From Streptomyces sp. SLBN-118 (lineage in GTDB: Bacteria > Actinomycetota > Actinomycetes > Streptomycetales > Streptomycetaceae), in NCBI RefSeq assembly GCF_006715635.1, contig NZ_VFNP01000001.1, positions 2,356,001 to 2,420,000 on the forward strand: a DNA stretch of 64,000 bases, written 5' to 3'. Positions within the stretch are counted from its first letter, which is position 1, and each line of letters opens with the position of its first letter. Below are positions 11,976 through 30,667 of this stretch, piece after piece. Both the position numbers and the translations under genes were made by a program. The notes below the pieces were generated by a model that was given only the letters and a program-made list of their open reading frames with translations, ran no database searches and had not been told where the DNA came from.

Positions 11976-11992
11976 TCCCGCTTCGCCCAGGC

Positions 11993-12023
11993 GTGGACCG
12001 GCCGTCGCCAACGGCCGGTCCAC
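11993..12023 (+). terminator. Hairpin between WxL-like and DUF916 genes
   Basis: A perfect 13-bp inverted repeat (GTGGACCGGCCGT, 5-nt loop, ACGGCCGGTCCAC) starts 17 nt after the stop codon. There is no U-tract, as is common in Streptomyces. It may terminate or attenuate transcription into the DUF916 gene. Confidence 0.6.
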
Positions 12024-12196
12024 CGCCGTCTCCACACCACTGCGGTCCCGGACATCCACACTCCTGCGGCCCATCCCCTGCCATGCCGCCGCGCCGTTCC
12101 CGCCCCCCTTGCGCCACACCGCCCATGGTCACACCGGTCCTTCGCCTCACCGACCCGACATCCCATGCCGCCCGTCGCCCTCCCCTGGAGCCGTGC

Positions 12197-14253: not shown

Positions 14254-15498
14254 ATGGGAGCCTATTCCAGAACCGTCGGGGCGCGTGCCGCCCTGAGCGC
14301 GGCCGTGGCCGCGGGCTTGGTCACCGGCCTCGTCACACTCGGCGGCGGTTCCGCCTCCGCCGACCCGGTGAAGCTGTCACAGAAGTACACCTGCAAGTTC
14401 CCGATCATCAACAACGATCCAATCGAAGTGGTGATCACCGCCGACATGCCGAGCACCATGCAGGTCGGCGAGAGTGTGCCCGAGTACGACATCAAGGCCG
14501 TCACCGCCGTCAGCCAGCGCGCCGCCCAGGGTCTCGGTGTCCTCGGCGCCGTGACCTTGGAGGGCAAGGCCACCGCCGATGTGAACGTCACCCTGCCGGG
14601 CGGCGACGGCAGCCTGCCGTTCAAGGTCGCCAACACCGTGGCGAAGGCCGACATCCCCAACCCCGCGGCGCCGTTCCAGGTGACGGCCACCGGCAAGTCC
14701 CCGGGCGGGCTGCTGACATGGGCGAAGGAGGGCACCGCCGAGTTCGACGTCACGGGCATGAAGCTGCACAACATGATCGCCCGGGACGCGGCCGGCGACC
14801 CGGTTCAACTGCCGCCCAACGGGGACGAGTTCGCGGCGGACTGCACTCTGGACGCCGGCCAGTCCACCCTGCTGCACACGATGACCGTCGAGGACGGCGG
14901 TACCGACCCGACCCCGACGGACCCACCCACCGACCCCACGGACCCCCCGACGGACCCCACGGACCCGCCGACCGACCCGGGCGATGAGCCGGTGTCGCTG
15001 GGCTTCGACATCAGGGGCACCTCGTTCATCAAGGCCGCCAATGGCAACACGCCCCTGGCCGGCGGCATCGATACCCGCTACGACCTGTCGAAGGGCACCT
15101 TCGACGCCGACCTGAAGCTCAACCCGACCAAGGGCAACTTCACCATCATGGGCTTCCTGCCCGCCACCGCCGACGTCGCCTTCGAGCAGACGGCCAAGAC
15201 GCACGGCTCCCTGAGCCCCGACGGCGTCCTCAAGTCGCATTCGCAGATGAACGTCAAACTCACCAGCGTCAAGGCCTTCGGCTTGCCGATCGGCGGCGGC
15301 GCGAACTGCAGGACCGTCGAACCCGCCAAGATCGACCTGACCAGTGAGGGCCGCTTCCAGCCGTACCAGGGCGGCAAGCTCAAGGGCACCTACACGCTGT
15401 CCGGCCTCAAGGACTGCGGTGGCTTCAACGACATGATCAGCGCGCTCATCGCAGGACCCGGCAACACCATCGACATGGACCTCACCTACCGCAAGTAG
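14254..15498 (+). CDS. Secreted DUF6801-like protein with a distinct C-terminal beta domain
   Basis: A 414-residue paralogue of the protein at 10830. The ATG at 14254 follows GAGAGG. The signal peptide ends near SASA (residue 36). Residues about 42-215 repeat the DUF6801-like pattern almost residue for residue (YTCKFPIINNDPIEV; AAQGLGVLGAVTLEGKAT; CTLDAGQSTLL). A linker of TDPPTDP repeats (about 217-247) leads to a different C-terminal domain at about 250-414. Its landmarks are FDIRGTSFIKAANG, FTIMGFLPATADV, NCRTVEPAKIDLTSEG, GGKLKGTYTLSGLKDCGG and LIAGPGNTI. The same CRT..P....LT / GG.L.G / GPGN landmarks close the secreted protein at 29258-30667 beside the mce operon. The second domain is therefore shared between the two loci. 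The ligand is unknown; an exported, wall- or lipid-associated role is inferred. Confidence 0.83.
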   Translation: MGAYSRTVGARAALSAAVAAGLVTGLVTLGGGSASADPVKLSQKYTCKFPIINNDPIEVVITADMPSTMQVGESVPEYDIKAVTAVSQRAAQGLGVLGAVTLEGKATADVNVTLPGGDGSLPFKVANTVAKADIPNPAAPFQVTATGKSPGGLLTWAKEGTAEFDVTGMKLHNMIARDAAGDPVQLPPNGDEFAADCTLDAGQSTLLHTMTVEDGGTDPTPTDPPTDPTDPPTDPTDPPTDPGDEPVSLGFDIRGTSFIKAANGNTPLAGGIDTRYDLSKGTFDADLKLNPTKGNFTIMGFLPATADVAFEQTAKTHGSLSPDGVLKSHSQMNVKLTSVKAFGLPIGGGANCRTVEPAKIDLTSEGRFQPYQGGKLKGTYTLSGLKDCGGFNDMISALIAGPGNTIDMDLTYRK

Positions 15499-15530
15499 CA
15501 GGGAGCGGTGCTCCGCACTGCGCTCCCTAC

Positions 15531-15566
15531 CCGGCCCCCCGCCCCTACCTCGAGGCGGGGGGCCGG
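15531..15566 (+). terminator. GC-rich hairpin terminator after DUF6801 gene
   Basis: A perfect 13-bp stem, CCGGCCCCCCGCC with its complement, and a 10-nt loop start 32 nt after the stop codon. A smaller hairpin (GGAGCG...CGCTCC) lies just before it at about 15502-15526. Confidence 0.8.
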
Positions 15567-15624
15567 ACCGTTACCCCAGACCCCCTGGCCCCCGTGATCT
15601 CCCCTGAGGCTTCGCGAGGTACTG

Positions 15625-16100
15625 ATGAGAACGCGACGCCAGCCCTGGGCCCACACCCCCCTGCGGGCCGTATCCGCAATCCTCGTGTGCGCCGCGACGC
15701 TCCTTGCGGACTCCTCGGCATGGCCGGCGTGCCCCCGAGGTCGCCGAGCCGGTGCCCCTGAGTCAGACGTACCGGTGTGTTTTCCGGCTCATCGAGGACG
15801 ATCCGCTCACCGTGGTCATGAAGGCAGACCTACCGGGTACAGTCAACGTCGGCCGCAGATGCCCGCCTTCAAGGTGACCGCAGTCGCAGGTCGGCAGGAA
15901 CGCGGCCACGGGTCTGCGGGCGCTCGGCAGCGCCACGCTGGAGAGCGTGGCCACCGCGGACGTGACGGTGCACATGCCGGAGGGACCGCTCAACGTCGCG
16001 CTGCACCACACGATCGGCAGGACCGCCCTGCCCGAGCCACCCGCAGACTTCGAGGTGATGGCGGCCGGTCAGCACCGGCCCAGCCATCCGGGCGCAGTTC
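15625..16100 (+). pseudogene. Decayed DUF6801-like secreted protein, second copy
   Basis: The ATG at 15625 opens a signal-peptide-like segment (RAVSAILVCAATLLADSS). After a frameshift comes VAEPVPLSQTYRCVFRLI, then DDPLTVVMKADLPGTVNVG, the counterpart of the DUF6801 start in the intact genes. This frame ends in a TGA near 15875. A further frame gives NAATGLRALGSATLESVATA and PLNVALHHTIGRTALPEPPA, matching the middle of the domain up to VMAAGQ. After that the resemblance fades. Two frameshifts and a stop rule out a functional product. It lies directly downstream of the intact copy and in the same orientation, as expected for a tandem duplicate that decayed. Confidence 0.75.
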
Positions 16101-16484
16101 GGCCACACCCGGGCGCGGCTCGCCGAGGTCCTGCAACGTCCGACGACCACCTCGCGCAGATAGCAGGTGGCCGGGGCAGCGGCGCCCGCAGCGGGGTCTT
16201 CGGCAAGCCGGAGAATGCACGCCGAGCGAGCTGGGCGGGTTGCCGCGGTGCGTGGCGTGTCGCGGGCGGGTGAGGTCGATCCAGCGCTGCGCTGGGCCGC
16301 GTGCTCTTTGGCGAGCGGCAGGTCGGGACTGTTGCAGAGCACCAGCGTGACCATGTGCGTCAGCCTGCCGGTCAGGACCCAGGCGGCTGTACCGCCTGGG
16401 AGGCGGGGCCTCAGTCCAGCGGTGCGCCTGTGGGTGCCGCGGGTCGGGCTGCTCGGCGTGCCGGCCCACGGCGTTTTCGGGCCG
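16101..16484. other. Gene-free stretch, remnants only
   Basis: I see no gene here. Open frames occur on both strands, but none has a family resemblance or an RBS-linked start. The left edge merges into the decayed DUF6801 copy, and the right edge meets the end of the convergent lipoprotein gene. Confidence 0.4.
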
Positions 16485-17048
16485 TCAGCCGGCCAGGGGC
16501 GCGGTGTTGCCGATGAGGTCGGCGCACTCGGGTGCCTTCTCGAAGGCCTTCTTCAGCTCGGGGTCGGCACGGAAGTCCTGCGCGGGGCCCTGGTAGGCAC
16601 CGGCCTTGTCGATGCCTGCGCCCGCCTTGTCCAGCGCCGCCTGCAGGGACTTCCTGTCAGTCACCTTGGCCTGCCTGAGTTCGGCGAGGGTGTCGGCGAG
16701 GGTGAGGCTGGCCTCGCTCAGATGGGCGAGGGCCTTGCGGAACGTTGCCTCGCCGCCGTCGACCGGCGGGGCGCCTTCCTGCTTCATCTTCATCTCAAGA
16801 ATGGCGAGTTGGTCTGCCAGCGCATCCAGGAAGGTGACGATCTGGGTATGGGACTGCCCGGGCTTCTTGCCGTCCAGAGCGGGCAGGGGCAGCGTTGCGC
16901 CGGCGTCCTGGACGCTGCCGCAGAATCCCGAGGCCCAGTCGACCTGGGGGCCGTCGTCGACCTCGGAACTGCAGGCGGTCAGCGTCAGCGCCGCTGCCGC
17001 CGCCACTGACAGCAGCAGAGCGATGGCGACTCGTCGGCGGGTTCTCAT
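16485..17048 (-). CDS. Putative lipoprotein at the end of the mce operon
   Basis: The ATG at 17048 has GGAGGAG upstream. Longer in-frame starts would add a Pro-rich leader. The 187-residue product begins MRTRRRVAIALLLSV and has a lipobox LTACSS, so it should be lipidated and exported. The mature region is mostly helical: FLDALADQLAILEMKMKQ, then a Leu/Ala-rich stretch through LADTLAELRQAKV. It contains two further Cys, in SGFCGSV and ECADLIG. I recognise no named family. It is the last gene of the leftward mce block, 77 nt after the Mce-associated gene, so an accessory role at the cell surface is likely but unproven. Confidence 0.75.
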   Translation of the reverse strand: MRTRRRVAIALLLSVAAAAALTLTACSSEVDDGPQVDWASGFCGSVQDAGATLPLPALDGKKPGQSHTQIVTFLDALADQLAILEMKMKQEGAPPVDGGEATFRKALAHLSEASLTLADTLAELRQAKVTDRKSLQAALDKAGAGIDKAGAYQGPAQDFRADPELKKAFEKAPECADLIGNTAPLAG

Positions 17049-17125
17049 CTCTGGCTCCTCCAAGAGCTGCGTGGTACGCGGGTGGGGTGGTCGGGCGAAC
17101 GGGCGGGGGACGGCAGTTGCGGGCG

Positions 17126-17797
17126 TCACCGGTCGAAGGTGTCGATGTTGGCGATTCGCCAGCTCCCGCCCCGTTCGGTCACGTCGACGGCGAACATGGC
17201 GGCGGCGTAGGTGGCCGAACCGCCCTTGGCGGTACTCGTGTTGCTCTGGTCGGCGAATACGAGGACCCGGGCCCGGCTGCCGTCGATGACCTCGACACCG
17301 CTGCGTGTGACGGTGGTGGTCAGAACGAGCTTGGACTTCCCGCCGTCTCTGCGGATGCGCGCCAGCATGTCCTGGTGCTGGCCGACCGCCTTGCCGGTGA
17401 GGTAGTCGTCCGCGGCACGCTGCGTCCTGTCGGGCGCCGTGTGGTCGTAGGAGAAGACGGCGCCCACCGCCTTGCTGACGACGCCCTTGACTTCGCTGGT
17501 GCGGGCCGTGTCGGTGACGGCCGTGTTGCGCAGGGCGGGCGCGCCGCGCAGGTCTTCGGCCTTGGTGTGGGCGAGGAGTGCGAAGCCGCCGGCCAGGACG
17601 GCGAGCAAGGCAAGGAGCAACGGCCAGGGCAAGGGGCGGCGGACCGGCCGGGGGCCGTCGGGGAGTGCCCAGGAGGGTCGGCGCCTCGCCTCCTTGGGAT
17701 TCGAGGGGATGCGGAGTGCGTCCTTGTGCGGGGTCCGGGTTGCCCGGCTCGCGGCGAGGCGGCGCTGCCGGTTGACCAGGTGGCGTGTCGTCGACAT
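17126..17797 (-). CDS. Mce-associated membrane protein
   Basis: A 223-residue protein with a long basic cytoplasmic N-terminus (about 1-55) and one transmembrane segment at about 56-76 (PWPLLLALLAVLAGGFALLA). A C-terminal SnoaL/NTF2-like extracytoplasmic domain follows, typical of Mce-associated (Mas) proteins. Family landmarks are VVSKAVGAVFSYDH, a middle DDYLTGKA, and the closing GGSWRIANIDTF. It belongs to a run of three such genes following mceF. In mycobacteria such proteins stabilise Mce complexes; the same is inferred here. Confidence 0.85.
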   Translation of the reverse strand: MSTTRHLVNRQRRLAASRATRTPHKDALRIPSNPKEARRRPSWALPDGPRPVRRPLPWPLLLALLAVLAGGFALLAHTKAEDLRGAPALRNTAVTDTARTSEVKGVVSKAVGAVFSYDHTAPDRTQRAADDYLTGKAVGQHQDMLARIRRDGGKSKLVLTTTVTRSGVEVIDGSRARVLVFADQSNTSTAKGGSATYAAAMFAVDVTERGGSWRIANIDTFDR

Positions 17798-17807
17798 GGT
17801 GTGCCTC

Positions 17808-18344
17808 TCACTGGTGCGCTGTGGTGTCGCCCGCGGGGGCCTGGCCGAGTGCGCTGAGCTTCCAGCCGTCGCCGGTACGGGTCAGCTCCCCGAGCAGACG
17901 GGACTGCTTGCTGCTCGGCTCGTCATCCGCCGGGTCGACGGTGATGCGTACGGCGATCAGGACCCCGGCCCGGCCCGCCCGCTGGTCGAGCTCGGTCACC
18001 GCGCCGGACAGCACCTTGGCGGTGGTGACCGTGCGGGCCTTGCCTACCTGATCGGCGAACGCGTCCCGCCCGTTGCGCAGTTCGGCCAGGAGGTCACCGG
18101 TCGCGGACCGCTCCCAGGTGTCGAGGCCCTGCTCCAGGTCGCGGTGGTCGAGGGTGTTGAGGTTCTGCACGGCCTGTTCGCCCGCCGCGAGAACCTCGTC
18201 GCGGGTCTGCGCGAAAGCGGCGGAGTCGTCGTGGGCGGCCGCGTACCAGGAGGTGCCGGTCCAGGCGGCGAGTCCGGTGGCGACGGCGGCCGTCAGCCCT
18301 GTCAGGGCAAGTGCCGTGCGGCGCCGAGGTGTTGTGCGTGCCAT
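17808..18344 (-). CDS. Mce-associated protein (Mas-like)
   Basis: The product from ATG 18344 is 178 residues. An upstream in-frame start would add a Ser/Pro-rich shadow sequence, so I rejected it. A basic N-terminus (MARTTPRRRT) precedes one hydrophobic helix (ALALTGLTAAVATGLAAWTG). A helical segment with the usual FAQTRDEVLAAGEQAVQNLN pattern follows, then a beta-rich NTF2-like domain ending in RTGDGWKLSALGQ. It lies 10 nt from the next downstream Mas gene and 16 nt from the one upstream, so it is clearly co-transcribed. Predicted to be membrane-anchored with its bulk outside, supporting the Mce transporter. Confidence 0.83.
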   Translation of the reverse strand: MARTTPRRRTALALTGLTAAVATGLAAWTGTSWYAAAHDDSAAFAQTRDEVLAAGEQAVQNLNTLDHRDLEQGLDTWERSATGDLLAELRNGRDAFADQVGKARTVTTAKVLSGAVTELDQRAGRAGVLIAVRITVDPADDEPSSKQSRLLGELTRTGDGWKLSALGQAPAGDTTAHQ

Positions 18345-18360
18345 GGGTGGTCCCTTTCCG

Positions 18361-18960
18361 CTATCTGGCCGTGAGCTCGGTGATCGTCCACTGCCCGGCG
18401 TACAGCCGGGCCGTGACGGACAGCTGGGCGGCGGCCGTCGTGGCTTCGGCACCCTTGCGCTGCGCGTGCTGGTCGAGGAAGACGAGGAGTTCGGCACGGT
18501 CGCCGGACAGCTCGCGCACGGCGGCCCGTACGACCTGGGTGGTGAGCGTCAGCTGCTGTCCGCGCACTTGCCGTTCGAGTCGGGTGTACAGCGCCTGGTA
18601 GTCCTTGGCGGCCCTGCCGCTCAGCACCTCGCGGGCCCGCTGACCGGTGGCGGGCAGGTCGTCGGGGGTGTAGCTGAAGACGGCGGCCAGGGCGTTGCTG
18701 ATGTCGCCGACAACCCGGCGGGTGGCCTCGGCGTCGGCCAGGGCGCGGTTGCGGGCGGCGGGGGCGTGCTCCGCCCGGTCGGCGGCGGCCAGGAGACCTC
18801 CGCCGGTGGCCAGCAGTGCGGCCAGAACCAGGACGGCCAGGGTTCGGCGGCGACGCGGCTTGGCGTCGGTGCCGGTGTCTGCGCCGCGATCGGTGCCGGT
18901 CTCGATATCGCTGCCGTCGTCGCGTACCGCCACGAACTCGCGCTTCCCCGTCAAGGTCAT
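18361..18960 (-). CDS. Mce-associated membrane protein
   Basis: I prefer the ATG at 18960 (MTLTGKRE) because GGAG lies 8 nt upstream. An ATG two codons earlier (18966) is too close to that site. The 199-residue product has an acidic/Thr-rich cytoplasmic leader, a basic KPRRRR stretch and a transmembrane helix (TLAVLVLAALLATGGGLLAA, about 38-57). The SnoaL-like external domain carries NALAAVFSYTPDDLPATG, DYQALYTRLE and the closing GQWTITELTAR. VFSY followed by a C-terminal GxW motif is typical of actinobacterial Mce-associated proteins. Third from the end of the operon. Confidence 0.84.
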   Translation of the reverse strand: MTLTGKREFVAVRDDGSDIETGTDRGADTGTDAKPRRRRTLAVLVLAALLATGGGLLAAADRAEHAPAARNRALADAEATRRVVGDISNALAAVFSYTPDDLPATGQRAREVLSGRAAKDYQALYTRLERQVRGQQLTLTTQVVRAAVRELSGDRAELLVFLDQHAQRKGAEATTAAAQLSVTARLYAGQWTITELTAR

Positions 18961-18974
18961 GTGCATGGCTCCGT

Positions 18975-19520
18975 TCAGCTCTCGGTGGCCGCGACGGCGC
19001 TCAGCGAACTGAGCCGCCAGGCACCGCCAGTTCGAGTCAGTGCGGCCTCGAAGCGCTTGCGGTCGGTGGTGGCATCGCCGGTGCGCGGGGTCACCTCGAC
19101 GCGGACGGTGGCGATGGCCTTCGCGGTGCCGGCCCGGTCGTCGAGTGAGGTCAGCGCCGCGTCGGTAACGGTCGCCTGGGTGGTGGTGCCCTCCTGTGCG
19201 AGGGTCTTGCCGCCCTTGGCGCCGGTGCGGCGCAGTTCGTCGGCGAGGGGTCCGTCGGCGGCATCCCGCCAGCGCCGCAGCGAGGCTGCCACGTCGGAGC
19301 CGTCGACGGTGTTCAGGGTCGTGATGTGACGCCGTGCCGCGTCGAGCGCCGCGTCCCTGCTGTGGGCGTACGTCAGGTCGGCGTCGGTCCGGGTCCTGGC
19401 GTAGGTCAGCGTGCCGTATCCGCAGCACACCACGGCCGCGAGGAAGGCGAGCAGCCATGCGCCGCGCCGTCGGGCGGCATCCGCCGTGGTGGGTCTCATC
19501 GCGCCTCCGATGTGTCTCAT
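18975..19520 (-). CDS. Mce-associated protein
   Basis: A 181-residue protein whose ATG overlaps the stop of mceF (ATGA), with GGAGGAG just upstream. An ATG at 19499, also with GGAGG before it, is an alternative start seven codons in. One transmembrane helix lies at about 21-40 (AWLLAFLAAVVCCGYGTLTY). An extracytoplasmic helical and beta domain follows, with RDAALDAARRHITTLNTVDG and a closing GGAWRLSSLSAVAATES. It is the first of three Mce-associated genes. They alternate in type along the operon (compare GDGWKLSAL and GQWTITEL), as in other actinomycete mce loci. Confidence 0.84.
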   Translation of the reverse strand: MRHIGGAMRPTTADAARRRGAWLLAFLAAVVCCGYGTLTYARTRTDADLTYAHSRDAALDAARRHITTLNTVDGSDVAASLRRWRDAADGPLADELRRTGAKGGKTLAQEGTTTQATVTDAALTSLDDRAGTAKAIATVRVEVTPRTGDATTDRKRFEAALTRTGGAWRLSSLSAVAATES

Positions 19521-20719
19521 CGCTCCTCCAGGCCGAGCAGTCCGCCGAGGCCCCTCGGGCTGTCGCCGGGGGCGTCACCGCGTGTGGAGCCGGGCCGGGC
19601 AGGGGCGGGGACGCCGCCGGAGGGGGCGTTGGCCGAGCCGCGTACGTTCTGGCCGCTGCTCGGGGCGGCGGTGCAGGCGGCCCGGGTGTTGGCCGGGGCC
19701 GGTGTGGTGTCCAGGCCGTTGCGGTAGGTGGTGGAGCCGTATCCGGCAGTGCAGGGCAGCGGCTTGAAGAAGGTGGTGACCATCCCCAAGCGCACTCCGT
19801 CGGGCCCGATCGCGGTGGCGCCCGCGGCGGCCACGCGGGGGATGCGGACCATGAGTTCCCGGGTGCCGCGCTGCCGGGTCACCAGCAGCTCGGAGGTGGT
19901 GACGAGATTGGCGAGCACGACGCCGAATCCCGGGTCGGTGTCCTGCAGCAGGGCGGTGAATTCGGTTGCTGCATCGGGGACTTGGGTGATCAGACGGCGC
20001 AGGTCCGGGTCGGACTTCTTCAGCTGTGCGGCAAGTTGGGCGGTGCCGCTCGCGAACCTCTTCAGGGCATCGGCCTCCTCGTTCTGGGTGCGCAGGACCG
20101 TCTCGCTGTCGACGAGAAGCTCGGTGGTGGCGGGCAGCGCGTCATGGGCGGCGCGGATGAACTCGCTGCCGGTGTCGATGAGGATCTGCAGGTCCGCTCC
20201 GCGCCCCTCGAAGCTCTGGCCGAGTTCGTCGACGGTGATACGCAGCTGTTCGGTGTCCACGGAAGAGGCCAGCCGGTTCACGCCGACGAGCACGTCGGTG
20301 ACCGGTGCCGGAGTGACGGTGGCCTGGCGCGGGACCACCGAGCCCTCCTGGAGGTAGGGGCCGTCGTCGCTGCGCGGGCTCAGGTCGAGGTACTGCTCGC
20401 CCACGGCCGACAGGCTGGCGACCTTCGCGTCCAGGTCGCTGGGGATGGGTGGGGCCTCATCGTCGATGCGGATACGGGCCCGCACCCCGGAGCGGGTCAG
20501 GTCCACGGCCTCCACGCGGCCCACGTCGACGCCCCGGTAGGTGACGTTCGCGTGGGTGAACAAGCCGCCGGTCTGGGCGAGTTCGACGCTGACCGTGTAG
20601 TGGTCACGTACCCCGACATACCGTCCGAGGTCGGCGTAGGTGACGGCGATGTATCCGATAACGAGACTGCCGAGGACGAGGAAGGCGATGTTCTTCAGGT
20701 GCGTGGACAGGGTGAGCAC
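19517..20719 (-). CDS. mceF: Mce family protein, MceF-type
   Basis: Sixth MlaD/Mce-domain protein of the operon (400 residues). A GTG start at 20719 overlaps the previous stop by one base (TAGTG). An N-terminal membrane anchor lies at about 9-29 (IAFLVLGSLVIGYIAVTYADL). The Mce domain at about 38-115 shows AQTGGLFTHANVTYRGVDVG and the LSAVGEQYLDL motif. A long helical region follows to about 320, with CTAGY near the end. The C-terminal tail is low complexity (PAPARPGSTRG). Mce subunits form a hexameric channel that carries lipids across the periplasmic space to the YrbE permeases. Order and length fit the sixth position. Confidence 0.92.
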   Translation of the reverse strand: MLTLSTHLKNIAFLVLGSLVIGYIAVTYADLGRYVGVRDHYTVSVELAQTGGLFTHANVTYRGVDVGRVEAVDLTRSGVRARIRIDDEAPPIPSDLDAKVASLSAVGEQYLDLSPRSDDGPYLQEGSVVPRQATVTPAPVTDVLVGVNRLASSVDTEQLRITVDELGQSFEGRGADLQILIDTGSEFIRAAHDALPATTELLVDSETVLRTQNEEADALKRFASGTAQLAAQLKKSDPDLRRLITQVPDAATEFTALLQDTDPGFGVVLANLVTTSELLVTRQRGTRELMVRIPRVAAAGATAIGPDGVRLGMVTTFFKPLPCTAGYGSTTYRNGLDTTPAPANTRAACTAAPSSGQNVRGSANAPSGGVPAPARPGSTRGDAPGDSPRGLGGLLGLEER

Positions 20720-21864
20720 TATGTGTCGCCTCCTGTGGCGGCGGTGACCGCGGGCAGCGGCAGCGAGGCGCGTTCGCCGCCGCCGCGTATCGGGGGCACG
20801 ATCTCCGTGCCAGGGGCCGCGGCGATCTTCAGATAGACGTTGAGGTAGTCGCCCTTCACCCCGGTGAGCACCTCGTCGGTGAAGGGATAGGTGAACATCA
20901 CCTGCAGGGACTCGGGCAGGTCGGCACCCGCGTCGGCGAGGTTCTTCAGCACGGGGGCGAGGGCCTTGAGGTCGGCGACCAGGTCGGCCTTGGAACGGTC
21001 GACGGTGTCGACGGCGACGGTGGACAGCGAGTCGAGGGCCCGCAGCATGGTGACGAGGGAGCCGCGCTGCTTGCTGAGGACCTTCAGGCCGGGCGGGAGG
21101 TCGCGCAGGACTTCGCCGATTTTGATGTCGCGGGTGGCGAGGGTCGCGGAGAGCCGGTTGATGCCGTCGAGGGCGGCGGTGATGTCGTTCTTGTGTTTGT
21201 CGAGGCTCTTGGCGGTGGTGACGAGCTGTCGGAGCATCGAGCGCGCTTCGGGCTCGTTGCCGTCGAGGGCCTTGTTGAGTTCGCGGGTGATCGTGGCGAT
21301 GTGCTGTACGCCGCCGCCGTTGAGGACCATCGACAGGGCGCCGAAGACCTCCTCGACGTCGGGGTTGCGGTTCGTGCGTTCGACAGGGATGACCGCGCCC
21401 TCGCGGAGCCTGCCCCGGTCCGCCGCGTAGGCGGCGGTGGTGCCGGTGCGAGTGTCCTGCAGGTCGGGGCGGGCCCGCATACCGTCGGGGGCGACGAGCT
21501 GGACATACTTCTCGCCGAGCACACTCGACTGTTCCAGGTTGGCGTAGGCGTTGGCGGGCAGCCGAACGGATCCGTTGAGACGAAGGGTGACACGGGCGGT
21601 CCAGCCGTCGTCGGCGAGGGCGATGCGGGTGACGCGGCCGACCGGCACGTCGTTGACCTTGACCGCGGAGTGCGGGAAGAGGCTCACCACATCACGGAAT
21701 TCGGCGGTGACCTCGTAGGGGTGGTCGCCGAGGTCGGCGCCGCCGGGCAGCGGCAGGTCCTCCAGTCCGTGGAAGTCCGGTATGCCGCCGGGGATCAGGC
21801 CGAGTCCCGTGAGGGTGACGGCGATGCTGAGGCCCAGGGTGATGCGGGCAGCGCGGCGCTTCAT
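20719..21864 (-). CDS. mceE: Mce family protein, MceE position, without an obvious lipobox
   Basis: A 381-residue Mce protein. Residues about 8-27 form a hydrophobic export segment (ITLGLSIAVTLTGLGLIPGG). In mycobacteria the fifth Mce subunit is a lipoprotein; here no Cys occurs in this segment, so lipidation is not expected. The Mce domain at about 48-125 contains FPHSAVKVNDVPVGRV and the LEQSSVLGEKYVQL motif. A long helical stretch then covers about 130-340 (LSATLATRDIKIGEVL). The C-terminus ends in a MFTYPFTDEVLTGVKGDY segment typical of MceE. The start overlaps mceD by ATGA-type coupling (21861-21864). Confidence 0.91.
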   Translation of the reverse strand: MKRRAARITLGLSIAVTLTGLGLIPGGIPDFHGLEDLPLPGGADLGDHPYEVTAEFRDVVSLFPHSAVKVNDVPVGRVTRIALADDGWTARVTLRLNGSVRLPANAYANLEQSSVLGEKYVQLVAPDGMRARPDLQDTRTGTTAAYAADRGRLREGAVIPVERTNRNPDVEEVFGALSMVLNGGGVQHIATITRELNKALDGNEPEARSMLRQLVTTAKSLDKHKNDITAALDGINRLSATLATRDIKIGEVLRDLPPGLKVLSKQRGSLVTMLRALDSLSTVAVDTVDRSKADLVADLKALAPVLKNLADAGADLPESLQVMFTYPFTDEVLTGVKGDYLNVYLKIAAAPGTEIVPPIRGGGERASLPLPAVTAATGGDT

Positions 21865-23078: not shown

Positions 23079-24121
23079 CAGCGTCCGCCTCCGTTCTTCG
23101 GCGGCATGCACCCGGTGGCCGGGGCGCTGCCCGCCTTCAGGTACTCCTTGGGGACCAGGCCGCAAAGGTAGGCGTCTATCCAGCGCCCGTTGCCGAGGGT
23201 GTTACCGACCAGGCGGTAGTAGGGGCCGGCGGCGGCGAGGGCTTGGTCGAGGTTCTTCTTGTTGCGGGTGAGGATGGTGGTGACGCGGTCCAGAGCGTCG
23301 AGCGCCGGGCCGAGCTGACTCTCGTTGTCCTTGACTAGCCCGCTGAGCTCGGTGCCCAGGTCGCGGGAGCCGGTGAACAGGGCGTGCAGGGCGTCCCTGC
23401 GGTGGCGTACCTCTTCGAGCAGCAGGTTGCCGTTGTCGATGAGTCGCTCGAACTCGGTCTGCTTGCCGTTGACGGTCTTGGTGAACCGGGCGGTGCCGTT
23501 GAGAAGTTCGGCGAGTTCGTCGTTGCGCGTGGACACCGTGCGGGACAGGGCGGCCAGGCCCGTCAGGGCCTTGCGCACATGGGGCGGGGTGTCGCGGAAG
23601 GTCGCCGAGATCGCTTCGAAGCTCTTGGCCAGCTGGTCCTCGTCGATCTCACCGACGGTACGGCTCAGCCCGTTGAACGCTTCCACCACGTCGTACGGGG
23701 AGACGGTGCGGCTCATGGGGATGCGCCTGCCGGGGTCCTGCTTGCGGCCGCCGAGCGGGTCGACAGCCAGGTACTTCGCGCCGAGCAGGGTGCGGACGGC
23801 GATGCCGACGGTGGACCGGTCGCCGATCCAGGCGTCCTTGACCTTGAAAGTGACCTTGACCTTGGGTCCGTCGAGAGCGACGTCCTCCACCTTGCCGACG
23901 CGCACCCCGGCAACGCGCACTTCGTCGCCCGGCCTGAGGCCCGCCGAGTCCTCGAAGTCGGCGGTGTAGTTGGTTCCGCCGCCTGTCACGGGCAGCGATC
24001 CGGCGTTGTAGGCGAGCAGTCCGATCAGGGTCATGGTGAGGAGTCCGGCGAGGGCGACGGCGACCGGGTTGCGTTCCGAGACAGGCTTCCAGCGTGGTCG
24101 GCGCAGACGGGGAAGTCTCAT
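23078..24121 (-). CDS. mceC: Mce family protein, MceC-type
   Basis: The ATG at 24121 overlaps the mceB stop (ATGA). The 347-residue product has a basic start (MRLPRLRRPRW), a membrane anchor at about 20-38 (VAVALAGLLTMTLIGLLAYN), and an Mce domain at about 50-128 with LRPGDEVRVAGVRVGKVEDV and TLLGAKYLAVDP. A helical barrel segment continues to about 310, and the closing region IDAYLCGLVPKEY is typical of MceC. A pair of Cys sits near the C-terminus (AYLCG, TGCMPP). It is one of six subunits of the lipid channel. Confidence 0.92.
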   Translation of the reverse strand: MRLPRLRRPRWKPVSERNPVAVALAGLLTMTLIGLLAYNAGSLPVTGGGTNYTADFEDSAGLRPGDEVRVAGVRVGKVEDVALDGPKVKVTFKVKDAWIGDRSTVGIAVRTLLGAKYLAVDPLGGRKQDPGRRIPMSRTVSPYDVVEAFNGLSRTVGEIDEDQLAKSFEAISATFRDTPPHVRKALTGLAALSRTVSTRNDELAELLNGTARFTKTVNGKQTEFERLIDNGNLLLEEVRHRRDALHALFTGSRDLGTELSGLVKDNESQLGPALDALDRVTTILTRNKKNLDQALAAAGPYYRLVGNTLGNGRWIDAYLCGLVPKEYLKAGSAPATGCMPPKNGGGR

Positions 24122-25152
24122 GCGCGGCACCTCGCGTCCTTCAGGGGCAGCCCGGTCGGGGGCGGGCTGCCGTCGTAGGTGTTGACGCCGCTGAGTCGTG
24201 CCTCGCACAGATAGAGGTTGAGCCAGGAGCCGTAGGACGCGATGCGGGTGATGGCGGCCATCTTCTGCGGGGTCCGGGTGAGGAAGTTCTCCACCAGCGA
24301 CCCGTTGTCGGCGAGCGTTCCGGAGACCCGGCGCAGATCGCGGATGCCGTCCTTGAGCGGGGCCCGGCTCTCGCCGAACAGGTCGGCGGTGCTCACGCTG
24401 AGTTTGCCGAGGGAATCCACCGACTTGCCGAGGGTTTTGCGGTCGCCGGCGAATCCGGAGACCAGCTCCTCGACGGTCTCGACAAGGTCGGTGAAGCCTT
24501 CCTGACGGGTGTTGACGGTCTTCAGGACCCGGTTCAGGTTGCCGATGACCTCGCCGATGACCTGGTCCTTGGCGGCTACGGTGGTAGTCACGGAGCCGAT
24601 GGTGCGCAGCAGGCCCTCGACGGTGCCGCCCTCGCCCTGCAGGACCTGCACGATCGACGAGGAAAGCCGGTTGGTCTCCGCCGGTGACAGTCCCTGCATC
24701 AGGGGCTGGAAGCCGTTGAAGAGCTGGGTGAGGTCGAGGGCCGGTGCGGTGCGCCGCAGCGGGATGGTCGCCCCCTCGGGAAGGAAGCCGCCGACCGGAC
24801 CGGCGCCGCGCCCCAGGTCGACGAAGCGCTGTCCGACCATGTTGAGGTACTTGATGGACGCCGTCGCCGAGGCGGGCAGCCTGCGGTCCGCGTCCATGCT
24901 GAACGTGACCTGGGCATAGCGGCGTTGGACGATCTCCATCGATTCGACCCGACCGACCTGCACGCCCGCGATACGCACCGAGTCGCCCTCGCCCAGTCCC
25001 GTGGCGTCGGTGAACCAGGCCTTGTAGGTGCGGGTCCTGTCCACGTCCGTGCCGGCGACGCTGAGCGCGAGCACGGTGGTGGCGAGAGCCGTGACCAGGA
25101 TGAAGATCAGCGACTTGACGGCGGGCCCTGTCAGACTGCGCTGGCCGCTCAC
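24118..25152 (-). CDS. mceB: Mce family protein, MceB-type
   Basis: A 344-residue protein coupled to mceA by an ATGA overlap. It has a transmembrane helix at about 13-32 (KSLIFILVTALATTVLALSV) and an Mce domain at about 41-118. The domain motif is LGEGDSVRIAGVQVGRVESM, followed by YLNMVGQRFVDLGRG. The helical domain includes LQGEGGTVEGLLRTIG. The C-terminal SYGSWLNLYLCEARLSG is characteristic of MceB/C subunits. It differs from MceA in lacking a long cytoplasmic leader. Confidence 0.92.
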   Translation of the reverse strand: MSGQRSLTGPAVKSLIFILVTALATTVLALSVAGTDVDRTRTYKAWFTDATGLGEGDSVRIAGVQVGRVESMEIVQRRYAQVTFSMDADRRLPASATASIKYLNMVGQRFVDLGRGAGPVGGFLPEGATIPLRRTAPALDLTQLFNGFQPLMQGLSPAETNRLSSSIVQVLQGEGGTVEGLLRTIGSVTTTVAAKDQVIGEVIGNLNRVLKTVNTRQEGFTDLVETVEELVSGFAGDRKTLGKSVDSLGKLSVSTADLFGESRAPLKDGIRDLRRVSGTLADNGSLVENFLTRTPQKMAAITRIASYGSWLNLYLCEARLSGVNTYDGSPPPTGLPLKDARCRA

Positions 25153-26459
25153 TTCAGGTTCACCTCCGCCCCACGGAAGGCGGGCCCTGCCAGGACGCTC
25201 GACCAGCCGGGAAGGGAGGCCGGGCGGCCGGTGTCGGGTGCGGTGAGGAGTTCGGTGACAAGGGCGTTCTCCTGGGGTGAATTGGCCACACCTAGCCCGC
25301 CCGGAAGCCCGGTCGGGGTGGTGGCCCGTTGTGGCGAGTAGGAGGCTCCGCTGTAGGGCACGGGATAGCAGCGCGGCCCGCCGCCCGAGTCGTAGCGGGG
25401 CGTGTCCCGGCCGGGCAGGTAGGCGCCGCGCGAGGGCACGACGTGCACGTCGACGCGCAGCCCGGGCCGCCCGGTGCCCTTACCGAGCGCGGCGTCCATC
25501 ACGGGCACGAAGTCGGCGACGGTGCTGAGCGTGCAGGGGAACGAGGGCGCGTACCTCGCGAGGATCTCCAGAGTGGGGCGGCTGGTGGCGGTCAGCCGGA
25601 TCAGGTTGGCACGGTTGGCGCGCAGCCAGCTGCCGGTCTCCTGCGCACCCGCGGTGACCGAGGCGTACAGCTCAGCCAGTTGGGCGCGCTCCTGGGCGAG
25701 GGTGGCGCTCGTGGTGGTGGCGTCGTGCAGTGCGTCGACGATGTCAGGCGCGGCGTCGGCGTAGGTGTCGCTGAGCTCGACCAGTTCCCTGATGTCCCGT
25801 TCCAGGGACGGCAGATGAGGGTTGAAGTCCTTCAGGTACGCGTCCAGCCGCACCAGCGACTCGCCCAGCTTCTCGCCCCTGCCCTCCAGTGCCTGCGCGA
25901 GTGCGGACAGGGTCGCCGACAGCTTCTGCGGCTGTACGGCGGTGAGCAGGGGCAGCAGGTTGTCCAGGACCTGTTCCAGTTCCACGGCGCTGCGGCTGCG
26001 GTCCTGGGTGATGACGCTGCCCGCGGCCAGGGGTCGCGGCGAGGGGTTCTTCGGCGGTACGAGGGCGACATACCGCTGCCCGAACAGGGTGGTCGGCAGC
26101 AGCTGTACACGTACGTCGGAGGGGACGGCGCGCAGCTTCGCCGGCTGCAGGGCGAGGGTTAGGCGGGCGGCGCGGCCGTCGGTGTCGACACGGGTGACCT
26201 CGCCGACGACGACGCCACGCAGTTTCACCTCGGCTCTCGGGTGCATCTCGCCGCCTACCCGACCCGCCTCGACGGTGACGGTCGCGGTGTCCGTGAACTC
26301 CTTGTCGTACACGGCGATCGAAAGCCACACGAGCAGCACCGGCAGGACGAGGTAGACCACTCCGGCCAGGCGTCTGCGGCGGGCCTGGGCACGCCGGGTG
26401 GGCCGGGTGCGGACGGCGGCGGGTGCGGGTGCGGGCCACACTCTGGTCGGGGGGGTCAT
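25149..26459 (-). CDS. mceA: Mce family protein, MceA-type
   Basis: The start is the ATG at 26459, which overlaps the permease stop (ATGA); a far longer open frame upstream is only a shadow over the permease gene. The 436-residue product has a basic, Pro-rich leader, a transmembrane helix at about 31-50 (LAGVVYLVLPVLLVWLSIAV), and an Mce domain at about 55-130 with MHPRAEVKLRGVVVGEVTRV and TTLFGQRYVALVPP. A long helical region follows, then APSFPCTLSTVADFVPVMD and a Pro/Gly-rich stretch with PRCYPVPYSG. It is the first of the six channel subunits. Confidence 0.92.
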   Translation of the reverse strand: MTPPTRVWPAPAPAAVRTRPTRRAQARRRRLAGVVYLVLPVLLVWLSIAVYDKEFTDTATVTVEAGRVGGEMHPRAEVKLRGVVVGEVTRVDTDGRAARLTLALQPAKLRAVPSDVRVQLLPTTLFGQRYVALVPPKNPSPRPLAAGSVITQDRSRSAVELEQVLDNLLPLLTAVQPQKLSATLSALAQALEGRGEKLGESLVRLDAYLKDFNPHLPSLERDIRELVELSDTYADAAPDIVDALHDATTTSATLAQERAQLAELYASVTAGAQETGSWLRANRANLIRLTATSRPTLEILARYAPSFPCTLSTVADFVPVMDAALGKGTGRPGLRVDVHVVPSRGAYLPGRDTPRYDSGGGPRCYPVPYSGASYSPQRATTPTGLPGGLGVANSPQENALVTELLTAPDTGRPASLPGWSSVLAGPAFRGAEVNLK

Positions 26460-27286
26460 CCGGCCACCTTCACTGTGGTCGTGGCGCCCCACAGCGCCAG
26501 GCTGAGGAAGAAGTCGGTGATGCTGATCAGCACGATCGCGGTGCGGACGGACCGGCCGACGGCGACGCCCACCCCGGCCGGGCCACCTGAGGCGCGGAAG
26601 CCGTAGTAGCAGTGGGCGAGGATGACCAGGACGCTGAAGATCAGCACCTTCAGGAACGAGAGCAGGACGTCGGTGGGGACCAGGAAGAGCTGGAAGTAGT
26701 GGTCGTACGTCCCTGTCGACTGCTCGTTGAACAGCACGGTCGTGGCGCGCGAGGCCAGATAGGAGCCGAGCAGTCCGATCGCGTACAGCGGGACGATGGC
26801 AGCCACGCCGGCCACGATGCGGGTGCTGACCAGATAGGGGATGCTGCGCACGCCCATCGATTCCAGGGCGTCGACCTCTTCGTTGATGCGCATGGCGCCG
26901 AGCTGGGCGGTGAATCCGGCGCCGACTGTGGTGGACAGGGACAGGGCGGCGACCAGGGGGGCGATCTCGCGGGTGTTGAAGTACGCGGAGATGAACCCGG
27001 TGAAGGCGTCGGTGCCGATCTGGCTGAGCGCCGCATAGCCCTGCAGGCCGACGACCGTGCCGGTGAACACGGTGATGCCGATCATCACGCCCACCGTGCC
27101 GCCGATGACGCTGAGGCCGCCGCTGCCGAACGCCACTTCGGCGAGGAGGCGCTGGATCTCCTTCGGGTAGCGGCGTATCGCTCTGGGGATCCACATCAAC
27201 GCCCGTGCGTAGAAGAGGAGTTCGTCTCCGGGACGGTCGAGCCAGGCGAAGGTTCGGCCTTCGCCGCCGCGTGCGATGAGGGCCAC
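26456..27286 (-). CDS. yrbEB: MlaE/YrbE family ABC permease (second)
   Basis: A 276-residue integral membrane protein with about five or six hydrophobic segments, such as VMIGITVFTGTVVGLQGYAA and ILISITDFFLSLALWGA. The cytoplasmic coupling motif INEEVDALESMGVRSIPYLV is the signature of the MlaE family, contacting the ATPase. It is placed between the first permease and mceA. It should pair with the first YrbE protein as the membrane part of the lipid importer. Confidence 0.94.
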   Translation of the reverse strand: MALIARGGEGRTFAWLDRPGDELLFYARALMWIPRAIRRYPKEIQRLLAEVAFGSGGLSVIGGTVGVMIGITVFTGTVVGLQGYAALSQIGTDAFTGFISAYFNTREIAPLVAALSLSTTVGAGFTAQLGAMRINEEVDALESMGVRSIPYLVSTRIVAGVAAIVPLYAIGLLGSYLASRATTVLFNEQSTGTYDHYFQLFLVPTDVLLSFLKVLIFSVLVILAHCYYGFRASGGPAGVGVAVGRSVRTAIVLISITDFFLSLALWGATTTVKVAG

Positions 27287-27289
27287 GGT

Positions 27290-28114
27290 TCACAGCCCCT
27301 TCGAGGGGACGAGCTGCAGATGGATGCCCGTCAGGACCATGTTGACGAAGAACAGGATGAGGAAGGTGAAGACCACCGACTGGTTCACCACGTCACCGAC
27401 TCCCTTGGGTCCGCCCTTCGGGTTGAGGCCGCGGTGTGCGGCGACCAGACCCGCGATGAAGCCGAACACCAGGGCCTTCAACTCGCCGATGTAGAGGTCG
27501 GGCAGTTGGGCGAGGGCGGAGAAACTGGCTACGTATGCGCCCGGGGTGCCGTTCTGCATCACGACGTTGAAGAAGTAGCCGCCCAGCGTGCCCACCACGG
27601 AGACCAGGCCGTTGAGGAGCAGCCCGACGAGCATGACGGCGAGCACCCGGGGCACGACGAGACGCTGGATCGGTGACACGCCCATGACCTTCATCGCGTC
27701 GAGCTCCTCGCGGGTGGTCCGGGAGGCGAGGTCCGCGCAGATCGCCGAGCCCGCGACGCCGGAGATCAGCAGCGACACGATGAGGGGGCTGGCCTGCTGG
27801 ATGATGACGAGGACGCTGGCGCCGCCGGTGAGGGACTGCGCGCCAAACTGTTCGATCAGGGAGCCGACCTGCAGCGCGATCACCGCGCCGAACGGGATGG
27901 TGACGAGCATGGCCGGCAGGATCGTGACGCTCGCGATGAACCAGAACTGCTCGACGAACTCCCGCCACTGGAAGGGCCGTTTGAAGATCAGACGGAGCAC
28001 GGTGAGACCGAGGGCGAACATGCGGCCCGTCTCGCGGAGCGCTCCGAGACCGGGCAGCGGCCGACGCGGCAGGTCGGGCTGGGCGGAGTCCTCGACCGCT
28101 GGGGGTGGAATCAT
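27290..28114 (-). CDS. yrbEA: MlaE/YrbE family ABC permease (first)
   Basis: A 274-residue permease overlapping the ATPase gene by 4 nt. Hydrophobic segments include FGAVIALQVGSLIEQFGAQ, LLISGVAGSAICADLA and VFTFLILFFVNMVLTGIHL. The MlaE signature is TREELDAMKVMGVSPIQRLV. A Pro-rich cytoplasmic leader precedes the first helix. It would dimerise with the neighbouring YrbE and be driven by the ATPase encoded just upstream. Confidence 0.94.
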   Translation of the reverse strand: MIPPPAVEDSAQPDLPRRPLPGLGALRETGRMFALGLTVLRLIFKRPFQWREFVEQFWFIASVTILPAMLVTIPFGAVIALQVGSLIEQFGAQSLTGGASVLVIIQQASPLIVSLLISGVAGSAICADLASRTTREELDAMKVMGVSPIQRLVVPRVLAVMLVGLLLNGLVSVVGTLGGYFFNVVMQNGTPGAYVASFSALAQLPDLYIGELKALVFGFIAGLVAAHRGLNPKGGPKGVGDVVNQSVVFTFLILFFVNMVLTGIHLQLVPSKGL

Positions 28115-29139
28115 GGGCGCTCACCTCCGGTGATCTGCGGGAAGGGGAACGTGTCCTCGGCAGCGGGCCGAAGGGTGCCCCGCATGCTGGCCTCCACGGC
28201 CCGCCGTGCCTGCGGGGTCAGTCCGTGCAGCATCGACTGCACCCGCTCCCTGCGGCGGCGCACCGCCTTGCGCTCCGGCAGTCCTGGGGTCGGTTCCAGC
28301 TGGGGCACGATGCCCCGCTCCCGGGCGGGCCCGGCGACGATGCCGTGTGCGGCCTCCCGGTCGACGGTGGCCTGGTCCTTCTCCTCCGACATGCCGATCG
28401 GGCCGGCCCTGTGCCCGCCCAAAAACTGCTCGACCACCGGTTCGTCGCTGGTCAGGAGCACCTCGCGGGGCCCGAACATCACCAGGTTTCGCCGGAAGAG
28501 CATCCCCATGTTGTCCGGCACCGTGGCCGCGATGTCCAGGTTGTGCGTGACGATGAGCATCGTCGCGTCGATCTGCGCGTTGATGTCGATGAGCAGCTGT
28601 GAGAGGTACGAGGTGCGCACCGGGTCGAGACCCGAGTCCGGCTCGTCGCACAGGATGATCTGCGGATCGAGGACCAAGGCGCGGGCCAGGCCCACACGTT
28701 TACGCATGCCGCCGGATATCTCGCCTGGCAGTTTGTGCTCGGCGCCGACCAGCCCCACCAGGTCCATCCGCTCCATGACGATGCGGCGGATCTCCGACTC
28801 CTTCTTGCGGGTGTGCTCACGCAGTGGGAACGCGACGTTGTCGAAGAGGCTGAGCGAACCGAAGAGCGCCCCGTCCTGGAACATCAGGCCGAACAACTTG
28901 CGAGCCTCGTACACCTCCCGCTCCGGGCTGTTGACCATGTCGACGCCGTCGATCAGGATCTGTCCCTGCTCGGGCCTGATCAGACCGACGATCGACTTCA
29001 GGAAGACCGTCTTGCCGGTGCCGGACGGGCCCAGCATCACGCTGACCTCGCCGCGCGGCAGGGTGAGCGTGACGTTCTGCCAGATGTTCTGCCGGCCGAA
29101 CGACTTGGTCAGCCCTTCGACGACCACTTCGACTCCCAT
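28111..29139 (-). CDS. mkl: Mce-type ABC transporter ATP-binding protein (Mkl/MlaF-like)
   Basis: A 342-residue ATPase with Walker A GPSGTGKT at 37-44, Q-loop MFQDG near 87-91, signature SGGMRKR at 142-148, Walker B IILCDEP at 161-167 and H-loop VTHN. MRKR in place of QRQR is typical of MlaF/Mkl. A C-terminal extension of about 85 residues (after about 255) ends in a basic, helical region (RVQSMLHGLTPQARRAVE), again as in actinobacterial Mkl. It powers lipid uptake through YrbEA/B and the Mce subunits and heads the main operon. Three SD-like repeats lie in its leader. Confidence 0.94.
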   Translation of the reverse strand: MGVEVVVEGLTKSFGRQNIWQNVTLTLPRGEVSVMLGPSGTGKTVFLKSIVGLIRPEQGQILIDGVDMVNSPEREVYEARKLFGLMFQDGALFGSLSLFDNVAFPLREHTRKKESEIRRIVMERMDLVGLVGAEHKLPGEISGGMRKRVGLARALVLDPQIILCDEPDSGLDPVRTSYLSQLLIDINAQIDATMLIVTHNLDIAATVPDNMGMLFRRNLVMFGPREVLLTSDEPVVEQFLGGHRAGPIGMSEEKDQATVDREAAHGIVAGPARERGIVPQLEPTPGLPERKAVRRRRERVQSMLHGLTPQARRAVEASMRGTLRPAAEDTFPFPQITGGERP

Positions 29140-29150
29140 CGCGCCTCACA

Positions 29151-29213
29151 CTCTCCTCGGACACTGGGTGGCTCTCTTCGGACACAGGGTCAGCTCTCCT
29201 CGGGCACTGCGCC
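29151..29213 (-). repeat. Three imperfect 21-22-nt direct repeats carrying SD-like GAGGAGAG
   Basis: On the minus strand the unit reads roughly CC-GA(G/A)-GAGAG-N. Its forward counterpart CTCTC(C/T)TCGG begins at 29151, 29172 and 29194. The copy nearest the ATPase gene lies about 15-20 nt from its ATG. The region is the entire gap between the secreted DUF6801-like gene and the ATPase gene. It may affect ribosome loading or be a small expandable array. Confidence 0.6.
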
Positions 29214-29257
29214 CCGGTGGTCAGCCCGGCGCTGCGCATGGTCACCACCGGCGCGGC

Positions 29258-30667
29258 TCACAGGTCCGGCGGCTTCGGTATCGCGTTCCTGCAAGACGAC
29301 CCGGTGCAGACGCGGCCCTGTTGGATCCTGAGCGCGTTGCCGGGGCCCGAGATCGCCGCGGTGAACAGTGGGTCCAGGTCCTCGCCCGCCGAGCCGCAGC
29401 CGGTGAACGGAGGTATCTCCAACTCGCCTTGGAGCAGCCCGCCGCTGGACACCGGATAGGTGCCGGTGAGCCGCGTGTCGATCGGGCGCGCGGTGCGGCA
29501 CCTGGGCCCGACGGGCAGCGGCACACCGCCCACCCGCACGTCGTACAGGCGCAGGTGCTGGTGGTAGCCGACCCTGGTCATGGTCGGCCTGCCCTCCCGA
29601 ACGATGTTCACGACGGTGGCGGGACCGGCTTCGAAGCGGACCTTCGCGGTCGTCGGCTGGAATCCGAAGGTCAGGAAGGTGGATTCGGCGTCCGGTAGGT
29701 CGATGCGACCCAGATGGTCGTACTCCTGGTAGCCCGGTGCCGCGACCTCGCGCACGTTGAACGCGAGGTGCATCAGGCCCACCCGGGGTCCGCGCGGGTC
29801 GTTGACGATCGTCGAGCCCTTCAGCTTGCGGATGGTCGCGAAGCCGACCGGTACGGCGCACAGCGACGTCGGCTCGTTCTCGGTGACCTCCGCCCCCGCC
29901 GGCACCTCGGGCAGCCGCTCGGGGTCGAGGCTGCCCCGCGGCGGTTCGGCCGGGCACTCGCCGGTGGTGGCGCGGGGCCCAGTGGTGGCGCGGGGCGCCG
30001 GGGCCACCTCGATGCCCTGCGGCGGGCGGTCGGTACCGTCCGGCTCGGCTGTGGCGTCCGGCGTCGGGGGCGCGGGGGCCGCCACGGGCACGGTGGCCAG
30101 GAGTGTGTCGGTGCCCGGCGCGGGGGCGCAGGACAACCGGGCGGGCTCGGGCTCCTGCCGAGTCGCGAGGGTGAGCTCCAGGTCCCTTGCGGCGAAGGTG
30201 ACATCGCCCGCGGAGCCGGCCGTCACCTGGGGTACGTCGCCGGTGAACCGCAGCTCGACATCGCTGTCCTGCGGGCGCGGCGTCTCGGCGGCAGTGAGCC
30301 CGGCCCACTGTGCCTGCGTCCGCTGTCGGCCCTGGGTCACCGCGGTGACCAGCGTCGCCGTCCCCGACAGAGCCGCTGTCGCCTCGGGCAGCAACTCCCC
30401 GACCACGCCTGCGGGCAGACGGACCGTGACACCGGCCGATTGGGGCCTGATCGGCAAGGCGACCGCACCGCGCGCCGGGAACGTGGCCGCCACGGCGACC
30501 TCGACCCGCCGCGACCCTGAGGGCAGCACGCAGTCGTACGCCAGCGTCTTGCGGGTCTCCTGCCCGCGCGCCGACATGCCGGAGCCGGGCAGCAGTTGGA
30601 CCACGAGCGCCACGGCGGTGACCGCGGCGAGGCGGAGGCCGAGCCGACGGCTCACGGCACCTGTCAT
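29258..30667 (-). CDS. Secreted DUF6801-like protein linked to mce operon
   Basis: The start is the ATG at 30667, with GAGGAG 7 nt upstream; a GTG directly before it is an alternative. The 469-residue product has a signal peptide (RLGLRLAAVTAVALVVQLL). A DUF6801-like N-domain starts at TLAYDCVLPSGSRRV and closes with RLSCAPAPGTDTLLATVPVA. A Pro/Thr-rich linker of about 100 residues follows. The C-terminal beta domain has FLTFGFQPTTAKVRFEAG, RCRTARPIDTRLTGTYPV, SGGLLQGELEIPPFTGCG and AAISGPGNAL. These are the same landmarks as in the second half of the protein at 14254-15498. It lies 118 nt upstream of the Mkl gene in the same direction, so it probably leads the operon. It may be an extracellular lipid- or wall-binding partner of the Mce channel; this is inference. 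Confidence 0.83.
   Translation of the reverse strand: MTGAVSRRLGLRLAAVTAVALVVQLLPGSGMSARGQETRKTLAYDCVLPSGSRRVEVAVAATFPARGAVALPIRPQSAGVTVRLPAGVVGELLPEATAALSGTATLVTAVTQGRQRTQAQWAGLTAAETPRPQDSDVELRFTGDVPQVTAGSAGDVTFAARDLELTLATRQEPEPARLSCAPAPGTDTLLATVPVAAPAPPTPDATAEPDGTDRPPQGIEVAPAPRATTGPRATTGECPAEPPRGSLDPERLPEVPAGAEVTENEPTSLCAVPVGFATIRKLKGSTIVNDPRGPRVGLMHLAFNVREVAAPGYQEYDHLGRIDLPDAESTFLTFGFQPTTAKVRFEAGPATVVNIVREGRPTMTRVGYHQHLRLYDVRVGGVPLPVGPRCRTARPIDTRLTGTYPVSSGGLLQGELEIPPFTGCGSAGEDLDPLFTAAISGPGNALRIQQGRVCTGSSCRNAIPKPPDL

Follow-up and report, generated by a model that had tools for sequence, protein, structure and literature searches.

Two genes for secreted-looking proteins, P0001 and P0002, flank an mce operon in a 64,000-nucleotide stretch of the genome of Streptomyces sp. 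SLBN-118 (contig NZ_VFNP01000001.1, positions 2,356,001 to 2,420,000; this whole stretch is called the window). Both proteins join an N-terminal DUF6801 domain to a homologous C-terminal domain, here the C-domain, that is predicted to fold as a beta-barrel. Genomic coupling to mce is virtually certain, and it follows one clade of mce loci. That P0001 and P0002 are dedicated secreted partners of this Mce clade, binding a hydrophobic substrate and passing it to the channel, is a proposal we regard as evenly balanced. The P0002 gene lies directly upstream of the Mce ATPase gene, as a preliminary description of the sequence had noted, with a gap of 118 bases. P0001 lies past the opposite end of the operon and on the other strand, so that the two genes bracket it. 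The features concerned are listed below; C_A denotes the P0002 type of C-domain and C_B the P0001 type.

14254-15498, plus strand: P0001, C_B-type protein of 414 amino acids, with signal-like start, DUF6801, Pro/Thr/Asp linker and predicted barrel C-domain (sequence, Pfam, model)
14383-14874, plus strand: DUF6801 of P0001, residues 44-207 (Pfam PF20611, E 4.3e-21, 76.1 bits)
14887-14988, plus strand: (DPPTDPT)n-like linker of P0001, limits approximate (sequence; predicted local distance difference test score, pLDDT, <50 for most of 217-243)
14980-15492, plus strand: C-domain of P0001, predicted antiparallel beta-barrel (hidden Markov model, HMM; structure model; alignment)
29258-30667, minus strand: P0002, C_A-type protein of 469 amino acids, with signal-like start, DUF6801, Pro/Thr-rich linker and predicted barrel C-domain (sequence, Pfam, model)
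30095-30538, minus strand: DUF6801 of P0002, residues 44-191 (Pfam E 8.6e-18, 65.4 bits; model mostly pLDDT >90)
29894-30079, minus strand: Pro/Thr-rich linker of P0002, about residues 197-258, limits approximate (sequence; pLDDT lower around 200-230)
29267-29887, minus strand: C-domain of P0002, predicted antiparallel beta-barrel (HMM, model, alignment)
28111-29139, minus strand: Mce-type ATPase, MceG/Mkl-like (ABC_tran E 4.1e-29; best NCBIfam model MlaF, below its cut-off)
27290-28114, minus strand: YrbEA permease (MlaE E 3.2e-62)
26456-27286, minus strand: YrbEB permease (MlaE E 1.6e-60)
19517-26459, minus strand: MceA to MceF, six genes at 25149-26459, 24118-25152, 23078-24208, 21861-23111, 20719-21864 and 19517-20719 (MlaD and Mce4_CUP1 in each)

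The DUF6801-like N-domains reported in the preliminary description are borne out by Pfam, both scoring above the curated cut-off of 26 bits, as does a third gene at 10830-11975. A signal-like start and a Pro/Thr-rich linker can be seen by eye in P0001 and P0002, which are presumably exported. The frame at 29258-30667 is coding on the minus strand only, the plus frame holding stops. The shared landmarks of the C-terminal halves also held up, being CRTVEPAKIDLT, GGKLKG and GPGN in P0001 and CRTARPIDTRLT, GGLLQG and GPGN in P0002. BLASTP aligned the two proteins with E 4e-12 over a stretch that includes some linker, and an HMM of C_A domains picked up 20 C_B domains (E 1e-12 to 1.8e-38), the reverse search giving similar E values among the matches listed. 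Chance similarity of the two C-domains is ruled out by these matches. In a joint alignment of 26 rows (A3), two cysteines are invariant, which suggests a disulfide, and most rows end in GPGN, with its first G and its N invariant. Searches of Pfam and NCBIfam up to E 1 gave nothing for the C-domain, and the Pfam search found neither an MlaD domain nor a solute-binding-protein profile in P0001 or P0002. The C-domain protein may work like the solute-binding protein of an ATP-binding cassette (ABC) transporter, but it is not a member of that class.

Structure models of the two C-domains are antiparallel beta-barrels with the same order of elements (strands, a helix, a last strand), and both match the solved structures of DynF, 3dzm and PsbO; unrelated folds were not seen. 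From these models, a barrel fold is very probable for the C-domain. Its look-alikes include porin-type barrels and DynF and, for one of the two models, YceI-type polyisoprenoid binders. A sequence search of solved structures gave best E values of 0.88 and 0.41, both to unrelated proteins.

Linkage to mce was assessed within Streptomyces by a contig scan with the P0002 family, which found 100 relatives, 80 of them kept as loci. An ATPase and YrbE were present on 75 of the 80, with the operon on the same strand in 53 and divergent in 22. Two of the remaining loci also carry mce genes (L034, an ATPase at a contig end; L046, YrbE and MceA), and L038, L072 and L093 have none, their contigs ending close by. 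A PucR regulator accompanies 76/80 loci. Among 150 Streptomyces genomes, YrbEA matches were divided into 48 type-1 and 29 type-2 loci at a gap between 408.6 and 367.5 bits, a split whose weak point is that the gap was seen after the search. A DUF6801 gene was found within 12 kb of 46/48 type-1 loci versus 0/29 type-2 loci, and both type-1 misses are in fragmented assemblies with the DUF6801 gene (G074) or a P0002 relative (G017) on another contig. By genome, 47 had type-1 mce and DUF6801, one (G017) type-1 mce alone, nine DUF6801 alone and 93 neither (Fisher 1.5e-28, kinship not corrected for). Type-1 mce is nearby for 49 of the 78 DUF6801 places and not for the other 29.

The window's own genome has four DUF6801 matches, all inside the window, and its only C-domain matches in a search to E 10 are P0001 and P0002. 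It also holds a second mce locus, of type 2 (L165; contig 1, 1617000-1636500). Six type-2 loci of 17-20 kb each (L165-L170) gave no match to the C-domain, DUF6801, PucR or either of two island families, X and Y, described below.

The same linkage extends across the class. Among 394 Actinomycetes genomes from 137 genera, 60 C-domain places were listed and 59 used, a fragment of an already counted gene of G482 being dropped; YrbEA rows were counted at 300 bits or more, with 11 weaker YrbE rows left out. The C-domain occurs in 31 genomes from 7 of the 137 genera, and YrbE is present in 29 of these 31 versus 129/394 overall; G284 and G341 have a C-domain and no YrbE match. Thirty-nine of the 59 places lie within 15 kb of YrbEA, where 0.64 would be expected from genome sizes, and 23 of the 31 genomes have at least one such place. 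Together with the type-1 counts, this amounts to a strong association with mce loci; the lack of association that would have refuted the idea of the preliminary description was not seen. All but one of the near places (38 of 39) are upstream of YrbEA, the sole exception being P0001. Two C-domain places near mce were found in G189, G238, G272, G302, G467, G482, G490, G506 and G536, and one in G312 and G459. The 20 places away from YrbEA include two on a separate contig of G427 and those of G262, G384, G435 and G514, small genomes of group f28. In the corresponding loci (L140, L136, L137 and L138), the C-domain is far from YrbEA or on another contig and sits in frames of about 540 amino acids, three of which are interrupted by stops within the match. 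The fragmented assembly G405 (group f48) has seven C-domain places, one of them near YrbEA on its contig.

A quick LG+G4 tree of the joined ATPase, YrbEA, YrbEB and MceA sequences was made from 60 loci, 37 with and 23 without a nearby C-domain. The C-domain label needs one change on this tree, at a branch with a Shimodaira-Hasegawa-like approximate likelihood ratio test (SH-aLRT) value of 94, below the starred level. Loci with a nearby C-domain fall into a single group, drawn from Streptomycetaceae, Thermomonosporaceae, an uncultured actinomycete and groups f19, f28 and f48, and the nearest rows without a C-domain are three of group f48. On the other side of the tree are L165 of the window's genome and the chosen second loci of G189, G302, G312, G397, G459, G467, G510 and G536. 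Rows were hand-picked (23/80 named loci, 6/29 type-2 loci and other chosen loci), and further mce loci of some genomes lie outside the tree, which therefore shows consistency and not frequency, the clustering of the label partly reflecting choice.

Which part of the protein follows mce can be read from loci where the two domains are separate. Among 29 newly fetched loci (L096-L124), a C_A domain is present in 21, all near mce; a C_B domain occurs in L099 and, in a neighbouring gene, in L109; and the other six have no C-domain, L098 lying near mce and the remaining five having no linkage to type-1 mce. The far DUF6801 places that were fetched, more than 12 kb from a type-1 YrbEA or on another contig, were L001, L099 (about 14 kb from mce), L102, L105, L106, L109, L110 and L120. 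Six of these eight have no C-domain: L001, which is a WxL-like gene of the window, and L102, L105, L106, L110 and L120. The last five are DUF6801 genes unlinked to type-1 mce and without a C-domain, and it is therefore the C-domain, not DUF6801, that follows mce. The idea of a DUF6801-type family tied to mce thus survives for the C-domain, and DUF6801 itself was rejected as the linked element. Six examined f28 loci have a C-domain near mce without DUF6801, and in five of them a short C_B-like and a longer C_A-like protein can be seen by eye near each other. It may therefore be that the fusion with DUF6801 arose after the C_A/C_B pair.

Type-1 loci often bear two additional families that look secreted, X (about 318 amino acids; L051:11580-12536, plus strand) and Y (about 230 amino acids; L073:9217-9912, plus strand), which occur on 58 and 70, respectively, of the 80 loci kept from the contig scan. 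They were first found between the barrel gene and the ATPase gene, and a Pfam search with one member of each gave nothing. Some f28 and f19 loci also have Y-like genes close to mce. X and Y were considered as relatives of the C-domain and rejected, with profile-comparison probabilities of 1.1 and 0.9 (4.5 for X against Y). Ten of the 80 loci lack both families, among them L016, the window's nearest tree row, and a family-X protein search of the window's genome gave no match. At least two C-domains were found in 9/10 genomes without X and Y versus 2/20 chosen from the 70 others (Fisher 3.5e-5, kinship ignored). In G550, G551, G552, G557 and G558, the extra C-domain copies share a contig with the mce-adjacent copy and lie about 14-17 kb from it, as they do in the window. 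C_B barrels may, at a guess, take the place of X and Y.

If P0001 and P0002 serve Mce transport, the C-domain would be a soluble, disulfide-containing barrel with a hydrophobic ligand in its core. DUF6801 and the flexible linker would position this barrel at the cell wall or cell surface, giving it reach or anchoring. Outside the membrane, the barrel would pick up or carry a lipid-like substrate and hand it over to the Mce channel, and uptake would then be driven by ATP through YrbEA/YrbEB and the ATPase. We infer the physical or functional partnership with Mce in lipid import that the preliminary description had put forward, and with it ligand binding, Mce contact, the direction of transport and the role of DUF6801. 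A lipid-carrier role of the C-domain could as easily hold as fail. More tentatively, the C_A/C_B pair may be lipid receptors of one Mce clade in Gram-positive actinobacteria, comparable to the solute-binding protein of an ABC importer.

The same mce linkage would fit a structural partner that binds the Mce needle or, via DUF6801, the wall and that tethers, caps or aligns the channel in the thick wall, its barrel being a protein-binding module with no substrate. Two observations lean this way and weigh against a substrate-carrying barrel: DUF6801 also occurs with a weakly WxL-like part beside a WxLIP-like gene, which is a cell-wall context, and barrel folds serve many roles, with the matches of the P0001 type mixing porins, PsbO and transferrin-binding proteins. 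The six f28 loci, however, link the C-domain to mce without DUF6801, and the conserved strand face of the P0001 C-domain is the hydrophobic one; a purely structural role is, in our view, unlikely. Variable island content, with secreted-looking X and Y on most of the 80 loci, would suit a set of co-regulated surface or developmental proteins (PucR, X, Y, the WxL-like pair) that has no part in transport and stays beside mce by shared regulation or inheritance. Yet the linkage goes with the mce clade in different families and in either orientation, and the second mce loci chosen from the same genomes do not show it, which makes such an island distinctly unlikely. An outward or homeostatic role, in which the barrel receives or clears away lipid that is being turned over in the wall and serves lipid homeostasis instead of nutrient import, gains from the direction of the related Mla system being posed as a question in the title of one source (PMC10212509) and is very unlikely, as mycobacterial Mce1 and Mce4 are described as importers in the available text of others (PMC9947336, PMC9882608).

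The remaining features of the window surround this locus.

16485-19520, minus strand: small open reading frames after MceF, at 16485-17129, 17126-17797, 17808-18497 and 18975-19520 (gene calling; no Pfam match)
31386-32618, plus strand: PucR-type regulator, divergent from P0002 (HTH_30 E 9.5e-18)
10830-11975, plus strand: third DUF6801 gene, without C-domain, DUF6801 stretch 10968-11459 (Pfam; C-terminal part weakly WxL-like, E 0.0042, below cut-off)
15734-16102, plus strand: relic of a second C_B-type gene, N-domain part only, DUF6801 stretch 15767-16072 with a stop in the Pfam match (Pfam, identity)

The relic shares about 57% identity with P0127 and P0128 over 127 N-domain residues, and no C-domain of its own was found. 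At 10830-13216 on the plus strand, the weakly WxL-like DUF6801 gene is followed by a gene whose product has a WxL-interacting-protein (WxLIP) domain (above cut-off, E 6.2e-7) and, as judged by eye, a membrane segment at its C-terminus; together they are a WxL-like surface pair in Streptomyces. Two large synthase genes with KS and AT domains (3-10261, minus strand) adjoin the DUF6801 cluster, the first reaching the window edge and the second also having KR and nitronate-monooxygenase-like domains. We take them to be reminiscent of polyunsaturated-lipid synthases. The small open reading frames after MceF occupy the place where Mas genes are described in the available part of a phylogenomic study of actinobacterial mce operons (PMC1810536).

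If true, the receptor proposal answers how cells that have no outer membrane bring a hydrophobic substrate to the Mce channel, and the bound ligand of a purifiable soil-bacterial barrel protein could reveal the substrate of that Mce system. The secreted barrel further divides the mce loci of Streptomyces into two groups and offers a clue to the function of DUF6801 proteins with this architecture.

The word DUF6801 was absent from the literature searched, a set of 5.39 million papers from which most subscription journals are missing, and no secreted barrel partner of Mce was described there, judging by titles and abstract openings. The Pfam family covers the N-domain alone, and the mce-linked C-domain lies outside it. 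Among the structural look-alikes, DynF (6ubl) is a barrel from an enediyne cluster that holds palmitic acid and has no meaningful sequence match to the C-domain families; its own role is not confirmed in the accessible portion of its report (PMC8725005). The polyisoprenoid-binding family of YceI and TT1927b differs from the C-domain in signature (two cysteines, GPGN), and P0001 and P0002 gave no match to YceI or another Pfam family of the YceI/lipocalin superfamily up to E 1. LucB and LucA are accessory proteins of Mce1, and an accessory role for Mce is what is proposed for the barrel proteins as well. LucB is a small membrane protein on Mce1C in what is available of its description (PMC9882608), whereas the barrel protein is predicted to be extracellular. 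The available part of the phylogenomic study names ATPase and Mas genes and no secreted barrel (PMC1810536). Like the actinobacterial Mce transporters (Mce1, Mce4 and the mce6 of Casali and Riley), the window locus has an ATPase, YrbEA/B and six Mce genes, and we class it as a variant of this known importer and not as a separate type of system.

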